From a virus, in IMG/VR virus record IMGVR_UViG_3300014838_000080, positions 1-23,642 of that record: a stretch of 23,642 nt of DNA. One strand, written 5' to 3'. The position numbers were made by a program, and so were the translations under genes. Shown here one piece after another: positions 2,373-22,656 of the stretch; positions within the stretch are counted from its first letter, which is position 1, and every line of letters begins with the position of its first letter. Under the pieces are notes generated by a model, which did no database searches, was not told the DNA's origin, and saw nothing but the letters and a program-made list of their open reading frames with translations.

Positions 2373-4484
2373 ATGAGCCGTAACACCTACGCCAACTCGG
2401 GCACGCAGCCGTACAATATCCAGCGGCCCGAGTCCCCTCCCGAAAAGAAAACCTCCCAGAAAACCACGAAAGACCAAGAAAAGTACATGCAGACCATGCT
2501 CGGCCGCTTCGAGGGGGCCCGCACTGGGTGGGAGATCCCTCGCAAGGACTTCCGTGAGGATCTGCGTTTCGTGTCCGGCGACCCGAGCGATCAGTGGGAC
2601 CCGGTGGTGAAGCAGAATCGTGACGCCGACTGGGTTCCGGCGCTAACGATGGACCGCCTAAATCCGCTGATAAACCAGATCGTTAACCAGGCGCGCCAGG
2701 ACAGGCCACAGCCCAAGGTATCGCCGGGCGATGAGGGCAACCCGCAGACCGCCGAGACAATCGAGGGTAAATTCCGCCATGTCCTCTACGAAAGTCACGC
2801 TGACCTGGCCTTTGACTGCGCCCAGGCTTACGCGGCTTCTGGCGGGTTCGGGTACGTCGAGTGGACCTGTGAGTACGTCGGTCGAAAGGGGCTCCAGGAG
2901 CCGCGGCTAAAGCGAGTTCCCGACCCTCTCAGCGTCTATTTTGACCCAGCCGTGCAGGAGCTCGACTACTCCGACGCCGAATATGCCTTCAAGCGCAAGC
3001 GCTATAAGCGTGGCGAGTTTGAGCGCGCATTCCCCGGTTACGAGGCCGTTCCGTTCCCGTTCCCCGACGGCGAGGAACTCAACGAATGGGGCGACGAGGA
3101 CACGGTGTGGGTTGCCGTCTATTGGTGGGTCGAGAAGGTCGAAACCAAGATGCACCAGTTGGCCGACGGCTCAGAGGTGGCAGACGATGAATTGCAGGAT
3201 GGCGATGAGCCAGTAAGATCGTGGCCGGTTACGGAGCGCATTGTACACCGGGACATAGTAGACGGCCAAAAACGCCTCGAAGAGTCGATTTGGGCTTCCG
3301 AATGGATCGGCATCATCCCCACGCTTGGTCTGGAGAGAATCAGTAACGGAAAGCGACGTTACGTGTCTGCGGTGCGTTACGCTCGAGATCCACAGCAATT
3401 CATTAACGTTGGGATGTCCAAGACCGCAACGCGCATGGCCGACGTTAACGACGCGCTTTGGCTCGGGACGAAGGGCCAGTTCAAGGACAAGAAGTGGCGC
3501 GACGGCCGGCGGCACTATTATCTCGAGGCCGAGCCTGTCACAATCCAAGGCAACCTGGCGCCCCCCCCAGAAAGAGCCAATGCGGAGCCGATGATTCAGG
3601 GTTCGACCGAAGCAACGGCACAGGGTATTGACGCGCTCAAGGGCGCTATCGGATACGTCGACACGGTAACCAAGCCATCGCAAGCCGACCTGTCAGGGAT
3701 CGCCGTAGAGCGCCGATCGCAGCAGACCTCCCTGGCCAATTTTCACTACGAGGATAACGGACTACAGGCTATGTGGCATACCGGGCGCGTGGGGATTGAC
3801 CTCATGCTTTCGCTGGCCGATACGCCGCGGCTCTGGAAGGTCATGAAGGAAGACCAGCGGCAATCCCAGACCGTGCCAATCACGATGGATATGGAGCCCG
3901 GCGTGAATCCCGAGGTTCCGGGATACGAGGGCCAGCCGCATATCAAGATCGACGACGGAGACTACGGTGTCATCATCCAAGCCGGGAAATCCTATGCGTC
4001 CAAGGTGGACGAGGAAGACGACTTCCTCACATCGTTAGTGCAGTCCGACCCCCAGCTTGCCGTGCTCTACCTGCCGACGATATTCCGGCTCCGTGGGTAC
4101 GAAGACCTGGCCGAGATCGCAGAGCTTGCCATGCCGCCGCAGATTCAGCAAGCTTTGCAAGCCAAGAGGGGCGGGTTGAACCCAGCGATGCTCCAGCAGC
4201 AAAACGCGGCGCTCACCCAGCAACTCCAGCAAGCCAAGCAACTTCTTCAGCAGGTTGCGCTGAAGCTCCAGACCAAGAGCATCGAGACGCAAGGCAAGGT
4301 GGACGTGGAAAAAATCAAGCTCATCAAGGCCATGATCGAGAAGCAAATGGACCACAGTCACGATGCGGTGGTCACGCACCTGGCGGAAGCCACGGACGCG
4401 GTGGAGCACGTCACAGGGATGCAGCACCAGCAGCAAATGGCGCAACAGGCAGCACTTCAGCCGGCGCCGGGAGGCATTCAATGA
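2373..4484 (+). CDS. P22-like portal protein
   Basis: 703 aa, close to the usual P22 gp1 length of about 725. The portal is the dodecameric ring at one capsid vertex through which DNA is pumped in and later ejected. The conserved run of the P22-portal family is visible: a region around residues 85-115 (MDRLNPLINQIVNQARQDRP, then PQPKVSPGD), a helical segment ending ASGGFGYVEW, and RVPDPLSVYFDP. The C-terminal about 110 residues are Gln/Lys-rich coiled coil (from AALTQQLQQAKQLLQQ onward), matching the helical barrel of P22-type portals. ATG 2373 has only a weak ribosome site (CGGG near 2358) and follows the GNRA hairpin. TGA at 4482-4484 overlaps the next ATG. It contains a C8 run near 3561-3568 without loss of frame. 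Confidence 0.9.
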   Translation: MSRNTYANSGTQPYNIQRPESPPEKKTSQKTTKDQEKYMQTMLGRFEGARTGWEIPRKDFREDLRFVSGDPSDQWDPVVKQNRDADWVPALTMDRLNPLINQIVNQARQDRPQPKVSPGDEGNPQTAETIEGKFRHVLYESHADLAFDCAQAYAASGGFGYVEWTCEYVGRKGLQEPRLKRVPDPLSVYFDPAVQELDYSDAEYAFKRKRYKRGEFERAFPGYEAVPFPFPDGEELNEWGDEDTVWVAVYWWVEKVETKMHQLADGSEVADDELQDGDEPVRSWPVTERIVHRDIVDGQKRLEESIWASEWIGIIPTLGLERISNGKRRYVSAVRYARDPQQFINVGMSKTATRMADVNDALWLGTKGQFKDKKWRDGRRHYYLEAEPVTIQGNLAPPPERANAEPMIQGSTEATAQGIDALKGAIGYVDTVTKPSQADLSGIAVERRSQQTSLANFHYEDNGLQAMWHTGRVGIDLMLSLADTPRLWKVMKEDQRQSQTVPITMDMEPGVNPEVPGYEGQPHIKIDDGDYGVIIQAGKSYASKVDEEDDFLTSLVQSDPQLAVLYLPTIFRLRGYEDLAEIAELAMPPQIQQALQAKRGGLNPAMLQQQNAALTQQLQQAKQLLQQVALKLQTKSIETQGKVDVEKIKLIKAMIEKQMDHSHDAVVTHLAEATDAVEHVTGMQHQQQMAQQAALQPAPGGIQ

Positions 4485-6439
4485 AGAAAGCACTACTCGC
4501 GGTATTCCTGGCGGCCTCGGCGCACGCCCAGATCGTGCAGCAGACCATATCGCAACTCGGGACGTCCGGCAATTGGGTATTGGCCTTCAATTGGACCGCC
4601 GGAAGCAATGGGGCTGTGCCGGTTACTCCGGCCAAACTTCAAGGTTGTTGCAACGGGTATTTCGTCACCCAGGTTGAAACTGTCCCTGGCGGTGTCATTT
4701 CCCCAAGCAGCGGGTATTCCGTACAGATTGTAGACTCGGCCGGGGTAGACGCTCTCGGCGGCCTTGCCTCTTCCTTGAGTGCGGCGATATCTCAATCGTG
4801 GGCGGCTACTGGGGCAGCTCCACCGATTCAAGGAAACTTCAGCCTGTTAATTTCCGGTCAATCCGTGCCCAGCGCGACAGGTGTAGTATACGTTTTCCTT
4901 TCCGTTGCGGGGCCGACAAAGACATTATCCAGCAGTAGCGCCAACTGGATCACCATCGGAAATCCTCCTTTCGTAGACATTCGCACCTTTGGGGCTGATC
5001 CGACCGGAGCGGCCGACTCAACCACAGCAATCAACAATGCGATCCTGAGTGTATGTACCGCTGGAGGGCGGGTGTTTATTCCCCGTGGGACATTTAAGAC
5101 CTCAGCGCCATTGGCGATGAATGCCTGTACAGGACTGGATATCGCAGGCACCGGAGCGGGGTCAATCATTTCCAGCTCGATCACCACGAACGCTATCCTA
5201 AGCGTTTTTGGCGCAGGCGCGAATAACAGTATTCACGATGTCAACATCCAAGGGGCCGGCGGTGCGAGTATCACCTGCATTTACGTCCATAGTTCATCGA
5301 ACACGCTTATTCAGGACAGTGTTATTTCTGGGTGCGGAAAAGAAATCTGGATGGACGCGAATACCCAGATTCTCCATGTCATTCATAACCAGATAATCGG
5401 CATTCCAGCCAACGGAATCGGAATCTTGCAGGGCGGATATCTCACTTCAGACCTTATCATCGAGCGCAATCTAATCCAATCAAACTCCGCAGGAAGTCAG
5501 GCATTGGCGGGGATTTATATCACCGGCAGCTCAGGCACCAAAATTACTAATAACGACCTCTTCGCCGATGGCATTGGGCTTTATATCAATACGGCAGGAT
5601 CTCAGCTTGGGCAGTATATAGAGTCAACCCAAAATTGGTATGACTCATGTTCCACGGCAGGGCTTGAAATTACTGGAGATAGCACCGGCAGCACCTATAA
5701 TTTTCAATCCGTGAATGACGATTTCTCAAGTAACCAGATCGGAATAGTTACCTCGTCTACGGGTGGTATCGATGGATTGATGTTCACTAACTGCCAAGTC
5801 ATCCAGAGCGTCCAGTGGGGCATTTACCACGGCGGCGGAACGAACGTGGAATTTCACAATTGCCAAGTGGCAGGCAATAGCACGGGATCATCGGGCACCT
5901 ACCAAGGCATGGCAGTAGCATCGAATATTTCCAAGTGGAAGGTTATCGGAGGCGTCTACGGAGCGATTAAAACCCCGGCGAATCTGACAGCCACACCGAC
6001 ACAGGGGTACGGAATTTTCCTGAACGGTGGAACCACAGACTATTACGAAATCATCGGCGCGACAGTTCTCGGAAACGTCACGGGCGGAATCGGTGGGGTC
6101 CCTGTCGGGGTTCACGCCGTGGTGGAAAACAATCTAGGATTCAACACGGCTCCGGTGAACTTCATAGCCACTGAGACCGGGGCCAATAACGCAATCGCCG
6201 GGACTTCGATTCTCGGGCTGGTAAATGGCACCTGTGTGAGTATCCAGCTTGCCCACACTCTTCAGGCTGGAGGAAACAGCTTCAACTTGAATGCTCTCGG
6301 AACGGTCGCAATCAAGAGCCACCTTAATCCCGCCAATAACATCGCCACGGGTTACGCGAATAGCGGAAGTATCTGGCCGATAGTAAACCTGTGCTACGTC
6401 TTTGCGTCTGGCGGCCTGTGGCTCGATATGGCGCAGTAG
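4481..6439 (+). CDS. Tailspike-like pectate-lyase-fold protein with signal peptide
   Basis: 652 aa. Residues 1-16 (MKKALLAVFLAASAHA) form a textbook Sec signal with an AHA cleavage site. Residues about 17-145 form a beta-rich domain that is paralogous to the same region of the adhesin at 20503. From residue 165, VDIRTFGADPTGAADST is the hallmark opening of the pectate-lyase-3 right-handed beta-helix, followed by GGRVFIPRGTFKTS and many N/G/T-rich coils to about residue 560. This is the fold of phage tailspikes that bind and often cut host polysaccharide. No catalytic residues can be assigned by eye. Start ATG overlaps the portal stop as ATGA with GGGAGG upstream. Its place between portal and scaffold is unusual, since P22 puts its tailspike at the far end. 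Cleavable export of a virion spike is also unusual. Confidence 0.8.
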   Translation: MKKALLAVFLAASAHAQIVQQTISQLGTSGNWVLAFNWTAGSNGAVPVTPAKLQGCCNGYFVTQVETVPGGVISPSSGYSVQIVDSAGVDALGGLASSLSAAISQSWAATGAAPPIQGNFSLLISGQSVPSATGVVYVFLSVAGPTKTLSSSSANWITIGNPPFVDIRTFGADPTGAADSTTAINNAILSVCTAGGRVFIPRGTFKTSAPLAMNACTGLDIAGTGAGSIISSSITTNAILSVFGAGANNSIHDVNIQGAGGASITCIYVHSSSNTLIQDSVISGCGKEIWMDANTQILHVIHNQIIGIPANGIGILQGGYLTSDLIIERNLIQSNSAGSQALAGIYITGSSGTKITNNDLFADGIGLYINTAGSQLGQYIESTQNWYDSCSTAGLEITGDSTGSTYNFQSVNDDFSSNQIGIVTSSTGGIDGLMFTNCQVIQSVQWGIYHGGGTNVEFHNCQVAGNSTGSSGTYQGMAVASNISKWKVIGGVYGAIKTPANLTATPTQGYGIFLNGGTTDYYEIIGATVLGNVTGGIGGVPVGVHAVVENNLGFNTAPVNFIATETGANNAIAGTSILGLVNGTCVSIQLAHTLQAGGNSFNLNALGTVAIKSHLNPANNIATGYANSGSIWPIVNLCYVFASGGLWLDMAQ

Positions 6440-6467: not shown

Positions 6468-6869
6468 ATGCTCCCCTGGTCGTTCGGCCGAATATTTCAG
6501 GTCGTCTCGGAAAACAATTCGCTGCTGAGGGATCTGCAAAGAAAGCTTTCGATTTTGATAGCACAGGAGAATTCTCTAATGATCGACACTTCCAAACTGG
6601 TGGCCGAAGTGGCCAATGAAACCACGGTCGAGCAGTCCGTTTTGACGCTCGTATCGAACATGGCGGCCAACGAGGCCGCTCTTTCCTCGCAGCTTGCCGC
6701 TGCGATCGCTGCGAACGACCCGGTAGCCCTGGCAGCCGTGCAGACCGCCATTGATTCCTCAGTGGCAACGCTGCAGGCGAATGATGCCGCCCTGGCCTCC
6801 GCTGTGACGGCAAATACCCCGGCCGCGCCGGTCACGCCGTCCGCGGCCACGCCGAGCGCGAAGAGTTAA
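6468..6869 (+). CDS. Small Ala-rich protein of phage structural regions
   Basis: 133 aa from ATG 6468. The front (residues 1-37) is amphipathic (LLRDLQRKLSILIAQENSL), the middle is a helical Ala/Val/Glu-rich stretch starting MIDTSKLVAEVANETTVEQS, and the C-terminus ends in Ala/Pro/Thr repeats (TPAAPVTPSAATPSAKS). Short proteins of this composition, with a TVxxSxxxLxxxLAAxxAAL helix, are common in phage structural modules with no defined role. Two starts compete: ATG 6468, four bases after a predicted leaderless-type transcript start, and ATG 6579, which has a good AGGAGA at 6565-6570 and would give 96 aa. Both may be used. A strong terminator follows at 6897. Confidence 0.6.
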   Translation: MLPWSFGRIFQVVSENNSLLRDLQRKLSILIAQENSLMIDTSKLVAEVANETTVEQSVLTLVSNMAANEAALSSQLAAAIAANDPVALAAVQTAIDSSVATLQANDAALASAVTANTPAAPVTPSAATPSAKS

Positions 6870-6896
6870 GCGCCGCACATTCTTACGAAGGAACAG

Positions 6897-6932
6897 AGGC
6901 CGGATTCCCATAAATGGGCTTCCGGCCTTTTT
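6897..6932 (+). terminator. Intrinsic terminator
   Basis: AGGCCGGA (6897-6904) pairs with TCCGGCCT (6921-6928), with an inner CCCA-TAAA-TGGG stem and a 2x2 internal loop between them. It is followed by TTTTT (6928-6932). This closes the portal-tailspike-small-protein transcript and separates it from the region that follows. Confidence 0.85.
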
Positions 6933-6939
6933 GCGTTTG

Positions 6940-6948
6940 TGGTAAGAT
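6940..6948 (+). promoter_or_regulatory. Possible extended -10 promoter of the structured region
   Basis: TGGTAAGAT: TG (6940-6941), one base, then TAAGAT. It lies eight bases after the terminator and predicts a start near 6955, immediately before the first hairpin of the structured region. It matches consensus less well than the other copies, and no -35 is seen. Confidence 0.35.
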
Positions 6949-6954
6949 TATCTC

Positions 6955-7395
6955 GTCGCGGAGTTGCTGCCGCGATAACAGATTTGCGGTCCAGGGGAGA
7001 CGCCTCACCGTCTCCCTCCCGCAAGCCCTTGTGAGGAGGGGAACTTGAAATCACCGTTTCCTTGGTTTGGCGGAAAATCGCAGGAGAGTTTGTTTTGAGC
7101 CCCTGGAGTGCGCCGGGTGTCTCGCGGCGCGTGCAGGGGCTCCTTACGAGCGTTACATGCGATACCCCTGCGTCAGTTGTCGCCGATGTCGATCTGAGAA
7201 CCCAGCCCCCAACAGGGTGAGCGCGGTCGCCTCAGAGGCAGACTGAGGCCAAAGAACCGGCGGGCTGCAATAAATTGGGACGTTGCAGACCAGAATCAGA
7301 TTCGATGCGGCGGCTGTAGAGAATGCCCCGAACAGGGGAAGAGGCTTCGCATAGAAGACCCAAGGACAGACCGTGCCTTGCCACTTCCGTAAACT
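6955..7395 (+). ncRNA. Candidate structured RNA region between modules
   Basis: This is the core of a 594-base gap with no substantial reading frame. It holds a series of perfect inverted repeats: TCGCGG/CCGCGA (6956-6975); TTGCGG/CCGCAA (6984-7024) enclosing GGGAGACG/CGTCTCCC (6995-7016); GAGCCCCTG/CAGGGGCTC (7097-7142) enclosing GCGCC/GGCGC; GCCTCAG/CTGAGGC (7229-7249); CTGCAA/TTGCAG (7265-7288); and CCCC/GGGG (7326-7338). It is bounded by a terminator and a possible promoter at its 5' side and by a second promoter at 7378-7405. I recognise no known RNA family and see no tRNA. It could be a phage structured RNA or a long regulatory leader. It could also be an eroded gene, since a methylase-like start lies inside. 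Ends are approximate. Confidence 0.4.
7045..7098 (+). pseudogene. Truncated start of a phage DNA adenine methylase-like gene
   Basis: GAGGAGGGG (7033-7041) is an excellent ribosome site in front of TTG 7045, which opens MKSPFPWFGGKSQESLF and stops at TGA 7096-7098. The opening PFPWFGGKS matches the N-terminal cofactor-binding start of phage Dam/D12-class N6-adenine methylases, which normally run 200-300 residues. Nothing recognisable as the rest follows in any frame; the frame reading RRRVCFEPLECAGCL gives only a doubtful echo plus two CxxC pairs. Either a deletion left a stub or the match is chance in a leader peptide. The stop codon falls inside a strong stem-loop (7097-7142). Confidence 0.4.
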
Positions 7396-7405
7396 GTGCT
7401 ATTAT
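7378..7405 (+). promoter_or_regulatory. Promoter of the scaffold-coat operon
   Basis: TTGCCA (7378-7383, five of six to TTGACA), a 16-base spacer, then TATTAT (7400-7405) preceded by TG at 7397-7398. It has both a -35 and an extended -10, making it the best sigma70-type promoter in the window. Predicted start is about 7412, giving a leader of nearly 60 bases that contains the GNRA hairpin at 7445. Confidence 0.7.
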
Positions 7406-7444
7406 TCCCACTGAGACCGCCAACTCGTTAAAAAGGTGAGTCGA

Positions 7445-7458
7445 GCGTCGTGAGACGC
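7445..7458 (+). promoter_or_regulatory. GNRA-tetraloop hairpin before scaffold gene
   Basis: GCGTC-GTGA-GACGC, a perfect stem with a GTGA tetraloop, ends two bases before the ribosome site GGAG (7461-7464) of the scaffold gene. The stem and the following GCGG are repeated almost exactly at 15913-15930, where the loop is GAGA. Confidence 0.6.
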
Positions 7459-7469
7459 GCGGAGTGAAA

Positions 7470-8435
7470 ATGGAAGAACTGAAGCCGCTTAGCGAAGCGT
7501 CCAGCCCCGAAGAGTTCAAAGCTCTGCGGGAACAGCATCGCAAAGCGTCGGAATCGGCCGCCGAACCCAAAGAGCCGCCCTCGCCCGCCAGCGCAAAGGC
7601 ATCCGAAACTGTCGCGGATTCGGAACCCGCGAAACCCAAAACTCAGGAAAAAGAAGAGAAGCCAAAGGGAGAGCGCACCCTTGAATCCCGCATCGCGCAG
7701 TTACGCGCCAACGGGAAGCACGGGGAGGCCGACGCGATCCTCCGTAAGACCTGGGAGCAGCAGTCCAACGAACGCTTCGACAAGCTCGAAAAAGAATTGC
7801 AGGAATACCGGACTCGCAAACCGGCAACCGAGCCAGCAGCCGCCGCGCCAGCAACTCAGGCCGCCCCAGCGACCGCGCAGACAACGGATGACGGACCTAA
7901 ATCCAAGGATTACGACGGATCGGCTCCGGGCAAGATGTACGAGGATTACCTTGTGGATCGAGCCCAGTGGAAGATCGAGCAGAGGTCCGCTGTTGAAAAG
8001 CAGCGCGCGGCTCAGGAAACCACCAAACAGACCATCACCCGGAGAATGGTAGAAGCCCGCGCGAAATATGCGGACTTCGATGAAAAGGCCGGAAATCTGG
8101 CTGTCGGGCTATCCCTCCCGAATATACGAAAGGCTCTCTTGGAGATCGACAACGCTGCCGACGTCTACTATCACCTGGCCGGAAACCCCGCCGAGGCAGA
8201 TAGGATTCGCGGGCTGGCCAGCGACGATGCACGGCTCATGCAAATGGCCATAATCGGGTACACGCTGCGCACTCCGGCCGCCGGCCGATCCGACACTCCT
8301 ACTGAAAAGTTACGGACCCCCGTGTCGAAGGCCGCGCCCCCTGGCCGGCAACTGAACGGTATCGAGCCGCCTCCCAAAAAGAGCACTGCCGAAGCCGACA
8401 ATTTCGAAGAATTCAAAAAGATTCGCCACGGATAA
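7470..8435 (+). CDS. Scaffold protein
   Basis: 321 aa from ATG 7470, with GGAG five bases upstream; an in-frame GTG at 7464 would overlap that site. The protein is highly charged and low in hydrophobics: a Glu/Lys/Pro/Ala-rich N-terminal third, helical segments around residues 70-115 (TLESRIAQLRANGKHGEADA), a disordered Pro/Ala/Thr linker, and a helical C-terminal half. It lies directly before the coat gene, as scaffold gp8 does in P22 (303 aa); scaffold directs coat assembly and leaves the procapsid. The sequence itself is not conserved, so the call rests on position, size and composition. A motif of type EEFKxxR occurs at both ends (residues 14-20, and the extreme C-terminus NFEEFKKIRHG), perhaps a repeated coat-binding element. 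Confidence 0.75.
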   Translation: MEELKPLSEASSPEEFKALREQHRKASESAAEPKEPPSPASAKASETVADSEPAKPKTQEKEEKPKGERTLESRIAQLRANGKHGEADAILRKTWEQQSNERFDKLEKELQEYRTRKPATEPAAAAPATQAAPATAQTTDDGPKSKDYDGSAPGKMYEDYLVDRAQWKIEQRSAVEKQRAAQETTKQTITRRMVEARAKYADFDEKAGNLAVGLSLPNIRKALLEIDNAADVYYHLAGNPAEADRIRGLASDDARLMQMAIIGYTLRTPAAGRSDTPTEKLRTPVSKAAPPGRQLNGIEPPPKKSTAEADNFEEFKKIRHG

Positions 8436-18584: not shown

Positions 18585-20506
18585 TGGCAGATCCCCAACA
18601 GATCACGCTCACAGACCCGCAGCAGTGGCTACGTGCGAACGGAGGCTCTGGGCCATCTCCAACACTCCAGGACCCGCAGGAGTGGTTGTCTGCGCAAAAA
18701 TCCGGGGACAAAGGGATCGGTGCTGCTTCGCGGTTCGGTACCGGATTGTACGAATCCACGCTCGGCGGAATCGGACAAGCGATCATGCACCCGCTGGATA
18801 CCATCTCGGGCATGCTGAAGCAAGGCATTGGCGTGGAAGATCTCAAGCAGATCGCGGATTTTGCCAGCAAGGGGAAAATGAAGGAAGCGGCCATGCTGGC
18901 GGCCAAGTATACAACAGAGGGACCTGTGGGTAGATTAGCCGGGGCAGCCGTTGCGCCAGCGGTCCAGGATGCCTCGGAGGGAAACTACGCGGGAGCTGCG
19001 GGCCGGCTCGTTGGCACCGCAGGAATGGCGATGTTGCCCGCGCTCGGGGAGACGGACGCGGCGGGTGCCGTGGGAGCGGGAATCCGGGCCGGCGGAGGGG
19101 ACGTGGCCGCCGGAGCGGCAAAAGCCGCTGGTGGTGAGTTGCTGGCCAAAGTAGTTCCTGGCATGGAATGGCCGGTGCGGATCGGGGTGCAGTACCCGGC
19201 AGTGCGGCAGATCGGCGCGGGAATCACCAAGGGCGTGAAAGCGTACCGGGACGCGATGGTGCCGGAGGTGGCGCCCAATATTGCCACCGCCGCGGATTTC
19301 GCCGACTTTCAGCAGCCGCCGCCCACGCCGCGGGCCGCGCCGAACGTCGCAGGTCCAGGGTTTGCAGCCGATACCCAAGTCCCGATGACCGCTGATGATG
19401 TCTTCCAGCAGACAGCCGCCGCTGCTCCGGTGGAAGACGTCGCGCACTTGAACGCCATCGCGAAATCCCTCGGCGCGAAGAATTTCAAAACACTCACCGC
19501 CGATCAACAGGCGCTCGTGCGCAAGATCGCACAGCAACCGGAAGCCCCCGCGCCGCAACCGAGCTCCGTAGCGCCAGCGGCCGCCGCCGCCCCACCGCCA
19601 CCTGAGCCGGCATCACAGGGGGCACAAGCGGCGCCGGCTGAAGCGCAAGTCACCACTGCGCAAAATCCGGCCACGCTGGCACAGGCACTCAAAGACGAGA
19701 TGCAGCAGTCCGGCACTCTGAATGATCTTGACAAGCTCGCCGCTGCCGAACAGCGCCGCGCCAAGTACCGCAACCAGGCGGCAGATAATATGGGAATAGC
19801 AAGAGAGGATGCCAGTCCATCTTCGGACATCGCACAAGGTTCGAAGGTCGAAGATATCGTAGGGGGAAACCGTGGGCGCTGGGCAAAGACTATGGCCACG
19901 CAGTTCAAACGTGCCGGCATGACCACAGAGGACGTAGATAAGCTGAGCCCGGACATGATGGACAGAGTCTCGGTTTCTGCCGGGGTATCCCCAGCCTCTC
20001 TGCGATCGCCGGAAACGATGTTAATGCTCAGCGAATACTTGGACAATATGTGGAAATCGGCACCAAAAGTGACACCCACCGCGGCCCCGGTAGCTCCGCA
20101 AGCCGCACCTTCCGCGCCCGCTCCAACCCCGGTTGAAGCTCCTCCAACTCCGGTTGATCCGGCAACCGCGGCAGCTAACCTCGACGCGGCCATGCGCGGA
20201 CCTGGCGGCAGTCTCGAAGGACAGCCTGCCACTATCCCCAACCCCGAGAAACCTGGGTTGACTCCCGAGGCTCACGCCGGAGCAGCGCGCGGAACGCGAG
20301 CCGATCGCGCGGGGCAACTCGCCGATGCTATATCGAAATCGAAGTACGCGCCACTCATCCAGCAGGGCGCGGAACTCTCGTCGGATGTTCTGCGGGCTCT
20401 CGCGCGCGAACTCTCGCCGTTTACGGATTTACCGAAGACCCCGGCGGCGCTGACTAAGCTCGCCAAAGACGTGCAATCCCGATTGACCGGAGGCGGTCCA
20501 AAATGA
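18584..20506 (+). CDS. Large ejection protein with Gly/Ala membrane-active region
   Basis: 640 aa. It opens with a short motif twice, TDPQQWLRANGG and QDPQEWLSAQKS (about residues 10-38). Residues 45-75 form an amphipathic helix region (RFGTGLYESTLGGIGQAIMH). Residues about 115-205 are Gly/Ala-rich and mildly hydrophobic (RLAGAAVAPAVQDAS, then AAGRLVGTAGMAMLPALGE), able to insert in membranes. Pro/Ala linkers near 320-355 and 500-530 separate helical domains (HLNAIAKSLGAKNFKTLTAD; MTTEDVDKLSPDMMDRVSVS). It is third in the ejection-type run, where P22 has gp16, also about 610 aa. The role is inferred from position, size and composition. Confidence 0.6.
   Translation: MADPQQITLTDPQQWLRANGGSGPSPTLQDPQEWLSAQKSGDKGIGAASRFGTGLYESTLGGIGQAIMHPLDTISGMLKQGIGVEDLKQIADFASKGKMKEAAMLAAKYTTEGPVGRLAGAAVAPAVQDASEGNYAGAAGRLVGTAGMAMLPALGETDAAGAVGAGIRAGGGDVAAGAAKAAGGELLAKVVPGMEWPVRIGVQYPAVRQIGAGITKGVKAYRDAMVPEVAPNIATAADFADFQQPPPTPRAAPNVAGPGFAADTQVPMTADDVFQQTAAAAPVEDVAHLNAIAKSLGAKNFKTLTADQQALVRKIAQQPEAPAPQPSSVAPAAAAAPPPPEPASQGAQAAPAEAQVTTAQNPATLAQALKDEMQQSGTLNDLDKLAAAEQRRAKYRNQAADNMGIAREDASPSSDIAQGSKVEDIVGGNRGRWAKTMATQFKRAGMTTEDVDKLSPDMMDRVSVSAGVSPASLRSPETMLMLSEYLDNMWKSAPKVTPTAAPVAPQAAPSAPAPTPVEAPPTPVDPATAAANLDAAMRGPGGSLEGQPATIPNPEKPGLTPEAHAGAARGTRADRAGQLADAISKSKYAPLIQQGAELSSDVLRALARELSPFTDLPKTPAALTKLAKDVQSRLTGGGPK
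20485..20498 (+). promoter_or_regulatory. Hairpin presenting the ribosome site in its loop
   Basis: GACCG-GAGG-CGGTC, a perfect 5-bp stem whose 4-base loop is the core of the Shine-Dalgarno sequence (GGAGG, 20489-20493). It ends four bases before ATG 20503. It could display or occlude the ribosome site of the adhesin gene. Confidence 0.5.
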
Positions 20507-22656
20507 AAAAACTGCTTCTGTTCCTGATGGCCTCGTGCGCCTTCGCCGCTGGCACCGTAAACGTCACGCTGGCGCCCCTCACGCCTACGGCAGTACCCGT
20601 GTGGGTGCTCACCTATGCGTGGACCGGAGATGCTTCCACGGGGTCCGTACCAGCCACGGCGGCCGCGGCACTCATCCAACAGGCCCAACTTCAAGGCTAT
20701 CTAATCTATGAGGGCGAATTCATCCCCGGCGCGACGACGGTCCCCACAAACGGCTACAGCGTCACTGTGACGAACACGGCATCGGTTGACGTGTTGGCCG
20801 GCGCGGGCAGCACTCTCAGTTCCACGACATCTAAGGTATCGCTCATCAGCCCACCGCAGATTTTGAGCGGCACTTTGACGCTGAATGTCAGCGGGCAGTC
20901 CGTAGCCAGCGCTACGGGCCAGGTGCTCATTTACCTCGTTCCGAATCCCTACACGGGAACACAGGTGACCACGGCGCTGGTGAATGTGACGACTAACCCG
21001 AGTGGGGTTTGCGTGCCGCCACAACCGCTCAACTTCAACAACGGAACTGGATCGGGCGCCGGGCAACTCTCCGGCTGCGCATGCTCTGGCGGTTCTTGTA
21101 CCTGGGCGACTATTGGGGGCGGCTCTGGGACATTCACGGCGCTCACTGGAGACGCAACGAGCACCGCGACGGGCGGCGCTACGACCGTCCTAAAAGTCAA
21201 CGGAAATACCCCCGGCGGAACATGCACGAGCCAATTCGTTTCCTCCGTCAGTTCCAGCGCAGTTCCCACGTGCACTTCCGTGACGCCCACGCTGGCGGGG
21301 CTATCGAACGTCACCAACGACGCGCAGACCAAAGCGGCGATCATGCCCAATACCGCGCCGTCCGCCGGTCAGGTGGCAGTCGGGAATGCAGGAGGGACGG
21401 CGTATGCGCCGGTGACGATCAGTGGAGGATGCACGCTCGCCAGTACGGGAGTAATGACATGCTCAGGTAGCGGTAACATGAATACCTCTACCTACGACCC
21501 TGCGGCAATCGCGCAGCAGGTTGTGGGCACGACTGCCACGCAGACGTTATCGAATAAAACCCTGGTAGCGCCAGTTCTCGGCGCAGCGACCGCGACCAGC
21601 GTGTCCACAGGCACTAGCCCTCCAGCGTCTGCATGGTTCACGGGTACGGCAGGTCTGGATGGATTTGGGACGGGAACATGCTCTGGCACAGTCCCGGCTG
21701 GCGCTGGATTCCTGTGTGCGCTATCGACTCTCTCCGGTCCTGAGTGGATGACATCGGGCGGCAGCATCCCGGTTGTGATGGGACCTGCAAGCGCAACAAG
21801 CGGGCACGTCGCGACATTCAACGGAACGAACGGCAGTCTCTTGCAGGACGGCGGAGCCTTACCCACCGGCACGGTTACTACAGTTGGATTCACTGGAGGA
21901 CTTATCAGCGTGGGAAGCCCTACGAGCGCACCGGCGCTGACCGTTGCGGGAACTAGCGGCGGCATCGTTGGCTTTACGAGTTCATCTGCTTGGGCCTCAT
22001 CGGCAGCATGGGCTGCTGGTGGAATCGGTTATGGTCTCGGTGCTGGCAGCGTTCCCGTAGCTACAGCAGCCGGGACAGCAAAGCAGATAGTCCTGTCTGG
22101 TGGCGCTGGGGCACCAACCATGATCGACTTCCCCCACGTGATGGATATACCTGCTGCGAACTGCGGACCGTCCTCGACCCCCGGTGCGGGATGGAGCACC
22201 TCAATATCGCCAATCTGTCGTGCTGGCACCAACAATAAAGGCGGCGTGCTACCATTCGCGGACGCATCGACCGCGCAGTTCGATCTTGAAATCCCTGGTG
22301 ATGCCGATCTCACTAGTGGCAACTACCCGTACATCAAACTGTTCTTCACGGATGGCGCGAACACCAGCGGCACGGAGATATTCCAGGCTCAAGTTTCCTG
22401 CTATGTTGCGGACTTCAGCGCAACGGACGACGTAGCCTTCGCGACGGCACAAGTCTTCACGACGCGGACGGCCACCGCCGCGAATCGTTCTGGCAGCGAG
22501 AATCTCCAATTCAACTCGACCTCAATGTCTGGGTGCGTGGCAGGCGCTTCAATGATCGTGCTCATCACGCGGAATACCGATACAGCCGCCAGCCCAGTGA
22601 ACGTGAGCAAAGCCAGCATCACGTTCTCCCGATTGCTTGCCGTAGGAGCACAATAA
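20503..22656 (+). CDS. Exported tail fibre / adhesin
   Basis: 717 aa, starting in ATGA overlap with the previous stop. Residues 1-16 (MKKLLLFLMASCAFAA) form a Sec signal; MASC also makes a weak lipobox. Residues about 17-150 share a domain with the tailspike at 4481: both have W-x-L...WTG, PGxxxPxxGYSV, VDxLxG, LxVSGQSVxSATG. A Cys-containing Gly-rich part follows, then fibre stem repeats (YDPAAIAQQVVGTTATQTLS, NKTLVAP). The C-terminal about 170 residues are a jelly-roll-like domain (PYIKLFFTDGANTSGTEIFQ; SMIVLITRNTDTAAS). It is likely a receptor-binding fibre. The shared domain is probably the virion attachment part. Confidence 0.7.
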   Translation: MKKLLLFLMASCAFAAGTVNVTLAPLTPTAVPVWVLTYAWTGDASTGSVPATAAAALIQQAQLQGYLIYEGEFIPGATTVPTNGYSVTVTNTASVDVLAGAGSTLSSTTSKVSLISPPQILSGTLTLNVSGQSVASATGQVLIYLVPNPYTGTQVTTALVNVTTNPSGVCVPPQPLNFNNGTGSGAGQLSGCACSGGSCTWATIGGGSGTFTALTGDATSTATGGATTVLKVNGNTPGGTCTSQFVSSVSSSAVPTCTSVTPTLAGLSNVTNDAQTKAAIMPNTAPSAGQVAVGNAGGTAYAPVTISGGCTLASTGVMTCSGSGNMNTSTYDPAAIAQQVVGTTATQTLSNKTLVAPVLGAATATSVSTGTSPPASAWFTGTAGLDGFGTGTCSGTVPAGAGFLCALSTLSGPEWMTSGGSIPVVMGPASATSGHVATFNGTNGSLLQDGGALPTGTVTTVGFTGGLISVGSPTSAPALTVAGTSGGIVGFTSSSAWASSAAWAAGGIGYGLGAGSVPVATAAGTAKQIVLSGGAGAPTMIDFPHVMDIPAANCGPSSTPGAGWSTSISPICRAGTNNKGGVLPFADASTAQFDLEIPGDADLTSGNYPYIKLFFTDGANTSGTEIFQAQVSCYVADFSATDDVAFATAQVFTTRTATAANRSGSENLQFNSTSMSGCVAGASMIVLITRNTDTAASPVNVSKASITFSRLLAVGAQ

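Follow-up and report, generated by a model that had tools for sequence, protein, structure and literature searches.

The window, by which we mean the whole stretch of 23,642 nucleotides analysed here, is the 23.6 kb virus record of a podovirus-like phage. Its portal protein belongs to phrog_156, its scaffold protein to phrog_8865 and its coat protein to phrog_283; among the matches listed for cultured phages, the coat protein has P22-type coat proteins at 28-36% identity. The scaffold gene (7464-8435, + strand) is preceded by 594 bases (6870-7463) that, as a preliminary description of this DNA had stated, lack a substantial gene, the longest + strand ORF being 59 aa. Two minus-strand ORFs touch this gap, one of 62 aa (6866-7054) and the end of one of 135 aa (7232-7639), which overlaps the scaffold gene. 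The gap opens with an intrinsic terminator behind the upstream ORF, which ends at 6869; this terminator (6898-6935, + strand) consists of GGCCGGA..TCCGGCC followed by a T run, with a scanner match at 6916-6928. At its downstream end lies a scanner-called promoter (7378-7405, + strand, TTGCCA-16-TATTAT). The preliminary description had linked this promoter to the gap; it is indeed present, but it belongs to the next operon, encoding scaffold and coat, and lies outside the RNA described below.

At least seven perfect inverted repeats had been reported in the gap. Our repeat search found eight in 6870-7463, five of them perfect. Perfect stems of at least 8 bp numbered three, compared with 0.57 in 30 shuffles (maximum 2). 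Five stems of at least 7 bp were observed against 1.7 in shuffles, with one shuffle reaching six, and 14 stems of at least 6 bp against 7.6 (maximum 15), so that at 6-7 bp the excess is moderate and not clear. The folding energy of 6945-7392 was z -3.25 on the + strand, with 0 of 100 shuffles as good, and z -1.66 on the - strand. When 110 folding segments from both strands were ranked by z, the + strand segments starting at 6881 and 6950 came first (-3.4) and fourth (-2.7), respectively.

Relatives of the gap were found in six other phage contigs, five of which carry its 5' domain and four its 3' domain. Inside the gap, blastn aligned no more than 28 bases with a 39.6 kb contig (L001); this match forms a hairpin, and a C-G/G-C swap within it is compensatory. 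A scan with the pattern of this hairpin returned 11 stretches: the L001 contig again (as L012), three true relatives (L014, L015 and L018) and seven others (L013 and six more), which were rejected as they contain the hairpin only, the rest of the RNA being absent. A covariance model (R1) covering the 3' domain and based on the sequences of the window, L014, L015 and L018 then identified L162 at 48.9 bits (E 4e-12, against 0.07 for the runner-up). A second model (R2), which represents the 5' core, identified L239 and its near-duplicate L242 (45 bits; E 4e-11 for L239). The family sample hence comprises seven distinct contigs, or eight with the near-duplicate, all metagenomic. The relatives picked by the single hairpin pattern also possess H1, P4, P5, P7, P8 and PK2 (described below), none of which had been selected for, and this supports an RNA class. 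The homologous gaps anticipated by the preliminary description therefore exist, but they are not restricted to the spacing between portal and scaffold genes.

The spread of the family was sampled by exact-pattern scans of one viral collection, one genome-contig scan and covariance-model searches that covered about 670 genomes as well as retrieved sequence. The genome-contig pattern scan returned 101 stretches, which were taken as chance, the hairpin appearing in none of the contexts listed. R1 had no match in 396 genomes of one phylum, where an empty answer shows little. Ten matches of model R3 in the same phylum, at 24-30 bits, were also read as chance: all seven that were checked sit inside long ORFs, and those aligned were without most of the conserved loops. 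BLASTN gave no credible cultured-phage match for the gap or its relatives, the one hit being a weak 30-base match, and no credible plasmid match for L014. A coat-protein search in 297 genomes of one phylum yielded a single match, at 33% identity too weak to name a host. Our paper searches found no description of this RNA.

The homologues and their covariation delineate a structured RNA of about 410 nt on the + strand (about 6955-7365), whose ends were placed by the presumed promoter and the last conserved pairing. Its 5' domain begins with a hairpin, H0 (6956-6975, TCGCGG/CCGCGA), recognised by eye; L014 displays TCCTGGA/TCCAGG at the same place, also by eye. It is followed by H1 (6983-7024), with an outer stem TTGCGG/CCGCAA and an inner stem GGGAGACG/CGTCTCCC whose arms form repeat I5. 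In a helix-arm swap test, for which the arms were picked by eye, the inner stem was the best of 24 permutations and the outer stem near-best (2 of 24). The short hairpin H2 (7025-7041) scored weakly, with 11 of 120 permutations as good.

The 5' core contains the hairpin P3b (7110-7130, GCGCCG-GGTGTCTCG-CGGCGC), the best conserved part of the RNA, with 100% of cells paired, together with an H-type pseudoknot, PK1, formed by stems P3a and P4. P3a (7105-7108 with 7140-7143) encloses P3b and shows two-sided changes in four of five pairs across six sequences, the window being one column out of register there. P4 (repeat I7) pairs 7133-7139 with 7165-7171, and its loop holds a conserved ACRAGCGTT segment (7146-7154); the model-fitted alignment shifts the P4 arms of the window, so that some window pairs are scored as unpaired. 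Two nested repeats had been highlighted in the preliminary description. That at 6984-7024 coincides with the conserved hairpin H1, but for that at 7097-7142 the pairing of 7097-7105 with 7134-7142 is not conserved in the family, which instead forms P4.

A long helix, P5 (7180-7198 with 7296-7314), closes the 3' domain; it was the best of 120 permutations, with -17.9 kcal/mol for cognate and -7.0 kcal/mol for non-cognate arms. Inside it stand two hairpins, P7 (7224-7258; P7a 7225-7227/7256-7258, P7b 7229-7235/7243-7249) and P8 (7262-7291; arms 7262-7270/7283-7291). P8, also the best of 120 permutations, has a conserved loop motif, TTGGG, and its arms are nearly all covarying, with two-sided changes in eight of nine pairs. 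Part of the P8 loop (7275-7279) pairs with a CCCAA stretch near the 3' end (7359-7363, within an invariant CCCAAGG at 7359-7365), giving a second pseudoknot, PK2. Two PK2 pairs are changed on both sides, as in GGGAT/ATCCC versus GGGCT/AGCCC in L015, and two of its seven pairs do not form in the window. Between P5 and this 3' strand lies P9 (7326-7338, CCCC/GGGG), for which three of 120 permutations were as good.

These predicted pairings are supported by compensatory changes in the 3' domain with PK2, in the 5' core with PK1 and in the long closing helix. The tests of pairing and covariation used 4-6 sequences and a shuffle null rather than a tree-based one. For the 3' domain with PK2, L162 included, 94.6% of cells were paired and two-sided changes affected 15 of 26 pairs, with a covariation of 0.608 compared with 0.200 in shuffles, kinship being ignored. 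Because L162 had been recruited with a pattern that fixes PK2, its PK2 is no independent test, while its P5, P7 and P8 are. A purely sequence-based alignment of the 3' domain gave similar values (95.2% paired, two-sided changes in 10 of 26 pairs, covariation 0.558 against 0.211), and sliding the pairing partner by 1-3 columns in that alignment brought pairing down to 24-45%. For the 5' core, 93.5% of cells were paired, with a covariation of 0.444 against 0.244. P3b, P4, P5, P7 and P8 were also predicted independently by RNAalifold on the full alignment. G-U cells exceeded A-C cells (16 vs 5), which points to a + strand RNA; an RNA from the minus strand, which would have fewer compatible wobble pairs, was rejected.

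Across the homologues, no conserved protein gene was found in the gap, and the differences between them show no codon-position bias. The latter also applies to the frame of the conserved hairpin (GAAGVLRR), which we rejected as a protein since its changes are mostly non-synonymous and, by eye, its start codon is absent in L018. A diversity-generating template repeat was discarded as well, BLASTN of the gap against the window giving no copy in the tail genes. That the gap holds chance hairpins or a decayed gene would fit stem counts at 6-7 bp just moderately over shuffles, yet it is scarcely credible, since several helices and both pseudoknots show compensatory changes between distant contigs, and the lack of codon-position bias speaks against a decayed gene. 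The earlier proposal of a new phage structured RNA is thus upheld by homologues, by strong compensatory pairing in their alignments relative to shuffles and by the absence of an Rfam match.

Upstream of the RNA, a presumed promoter can be recognised by eye at 6920-6948 (+ strand), with TTCCGG (6920-6925) and TAAGAT (6943-6948) separated by 17 nt. The terminator and promoter-like site described earlier at the start of the gap fared differently: the scanner recovered the terminator, but it made no promoter call near 6940 in the window. The terminator is 95% conserved in L001, and its 3' arm overlaps the presumed -35 element. By eye, a -10-like hexamer directly precedes the RNA in the window, L001, L014, L015 and L239, and comparable hexamer pairs occur in L001 (TTCCGG-17-TATCCT), L014 (TTCCAT-17-TATGCT) and L239 (TTGACG..GATAAT). 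TTGCAA-18-TATAAT before the RNA of L015 was the sole scanner call among the three RNA-bearing stretches scanned. On the 3' side, the scanner found no clear terminator of the RNA in the window. The -10 half of the scaffold promoter is kept in L001, where flank homology resumes at 7392.

The same predicted 5' core evidently carries at least two alternative 3' halves. The window-type 3' domain is common to the window, L014, L015, L018 and L162, and has no match in L001. L001 and L239 instead share another 3' half, with AATCCGGGCAACGGGCTG, TACGNCCCGGT, AGTTCNAGCAGA and CTATGG in both. Conversely, the 5' core has no detectable match in L162. Taken together, the two 3' halves and the lone domain of L162 indicate that the RNA is modular, and the 5' core and 3' domain may be two separable elements. 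In L162, the 3' domain stands alone (1803-1980) directly before an ORF, with TCGCGG/CCGCGA closing it, and may represent such a separable element. In L239 (7127-7245), AGTTG followed by CGTTTCGTAGG has, by eye, a complementary CCACGAAACG about 100 nt further on, suggesting a long closing helix for the other 3' half as well.

Comparison of the window with L001 revealed flanks that are 98% identical over 2,409 bases to the right of the gap and 95% identical over 116 bases to the left, with near-identical coat and scaffold genes. Despite this, the two RNAs are barely alike. By pairwise alignment score, the RNA of the window has its closest counterpart in L014 (z 38.5), an unrelated contig that encodes a tape-measure protein, and is far from that of L001 (z 6.8). 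A near-identical flank in L001 combined with a closest RNA in L014 implies that RNA alleles are exchanged between phage types. Of the other relatives, L015 resides in a 96 kb contig, and the L018 contig has a portal of another family, phrog_2662. Judging from these contigs, the RNA is present in phages of different types and is evidently replaced as a cassette. The gap before the scaffold gene is absent in L002 and L008, relatives of the window by coat protein, so the RNA is accessory.

A phage-encoded RNA near portal and capsid genes, as in the window and L239, could in principle be a DNA-packaging RNA acting at the portal like the phi29-type pRNA. We regard this as highly improbable, as the L014 and L015 copies are not beside portal or terminase genes, these phages have ordinary large terminases, the RNA is missing at this place in L002 and L008, and the Rfam pRNA model was not matched.

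The genes downstream of the RNA vary, encoding a scaffold protein, a small unknown protein or a glycosyltransferase. An ORF begins 15-20 nt past the end of the RNA in both L018 and L162, and each of these two ORFs matches glycosyltransferase families. This arrangement makes a cis-acting, riboswitch-like leader the main rival explanation: the fold would hide or present AAGG, at the 3' strand of PK2, as a Shine-Dalgarno sequence and so control translation of the next gene. The CCCAAGG containing it is invariant in all five 3' domains. Such a leader is nevertheless unlikely, because in the window a separate promoter intervenes between the RNA and the scaffold gene, the kind of downstream gene is not constant, and about 410 nt with two domains is far above the usual size of a leader. 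Moreover, by eye, the start codons that might follow AAGG lead, in the window and L014, into frames of only 12-13 codons.

Comparison with known RNAs yielded no relative by sequence: Rfam searches at gathering and permissive thresholds gave chance-level matches only, and the GOLLD and ROOL models were not matched. ROOL is a large ornate RNA of phages and prophages with several pseudoknots and without a known protein partner or described function, of which the solved example measures 659 nt (PMC12286853). GOLLD is a giant phage-encoded RNA in which a well conserved region accompanies a less conserved one, and its expression is reported to rise during lysis (PMC12286853). The RNA described here shares with ROOL its phage origin, its length of several hundred nucleotides and its several pseudoknots (PK1 and PK2), and differs in its smaller size (about 410 nt). 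With GOLLD it shares phage origin and regions of unequal conservation, but it is about half the size and reverses the layout, its 5' core being shared and its 3' half variable. No tRNA genes were found in the window or in the stretches around the relatives, a difference from ROOL and from the frequent tRNA-gene neighbourhood of GOLLD. On the best reading, the RNA appears analogous to GOLLD and ROOL, its nearest known kinds. The phi29-like pRNA is likewise a phage structural RNA, but it is much smaller, and the RNA studied here has no fixed link with packaging genes. TnpB/IscB guide RNAs (omega RNA, HEARO and RAGATH-18-derived) are also large and pseudoknotted, and L018 has a TnpB gene 1.3 kb away; in contrast to those RNAs, the one described here has no adjoining TnpB or IscB seen in the other contigs, does not overlap the end of the TnpB gene and has no Rfam match.

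We therefore think it likely that the gap holds a new class of large, accessory phage RNA that forms a separate + strand unit and probably acts in trans. With the genes on the tailspike side before it and the scaffold-coat operon after it, this unit would probably have a promoter of its own, driving + strand transcription. The differing downstream genes and the separate promoter argue for a role in trans, in which the compact RNA body would bind a phage or host partner. The finding that the RNA has been replaced between genomes that are nearly identical elsewhere suggests that its partner differs from host to host or from one rival phage to another; a target in host defence or takeover would be an example. 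A special case of this trans-acting RNA would be an anti-defence decoy that imitates an immune RNA or protein of the host, or titrates it. The swapping of alleles between near-identical genomes and the accessory presence would suit a decoy, which still seems quite unlikely to us, as there is no likeness to a known immune RNA and allele exchange has other causes. More tentatively, a trans-acting accessory RNA of this kind could possibly be an RNA-only gene with a double-pseudoknotted fold, traded as a cassette among unrelated phages, with interchangeable 3' halves, a varying host or rival target and perhaps an ordered RNA assembly.

The known classes of large phage RNA are few, and GOLLD and ROOL, which have been studied most thoroughly, have no settled function. 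The RNA reported here is compact, its predicted fold has two domains and contains several covarying helices open to testing, and it occurs in more than one type of phage. Its wholesale replacement in near-identical genomes amounts to a swap experiment made by nature, from which RNA function could be studied, and its exchange suggests that phages trade RNA genes as they do protein accessory genes.

Several neighbouring genes were recorded along with the RNA. The L018 contig carries a TnpB-type gene (PF01385, PF07282; L141 10159-11391, - strand) about 1.3 kb upstream of the RNA, and the L015 contig an ISL3-type transposase gene (L140 9926-10600, - strand) just past it. A tailspike-like beta-helix gene is located next to the RNA both in the window (4481-6439, 652 aa) and in L001 (1926-4277, 783 aa); the two diverge past a similar N-terminal part, the opposite flank being 98% identical over 2.4 kb. 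Upstream of the portal gene, the window encodes a protein (1476-1943) with a weak match to GroES-type co-chaperonins (phrog_3188). Finally, the long genes at 4481-6439 and 20503-22656 begin with similar signal-like N-terminal parts (MKKALLAVFLA... and MKKLLLFLMAS...), which suggests that their products are paralogous virion-attached proteins.
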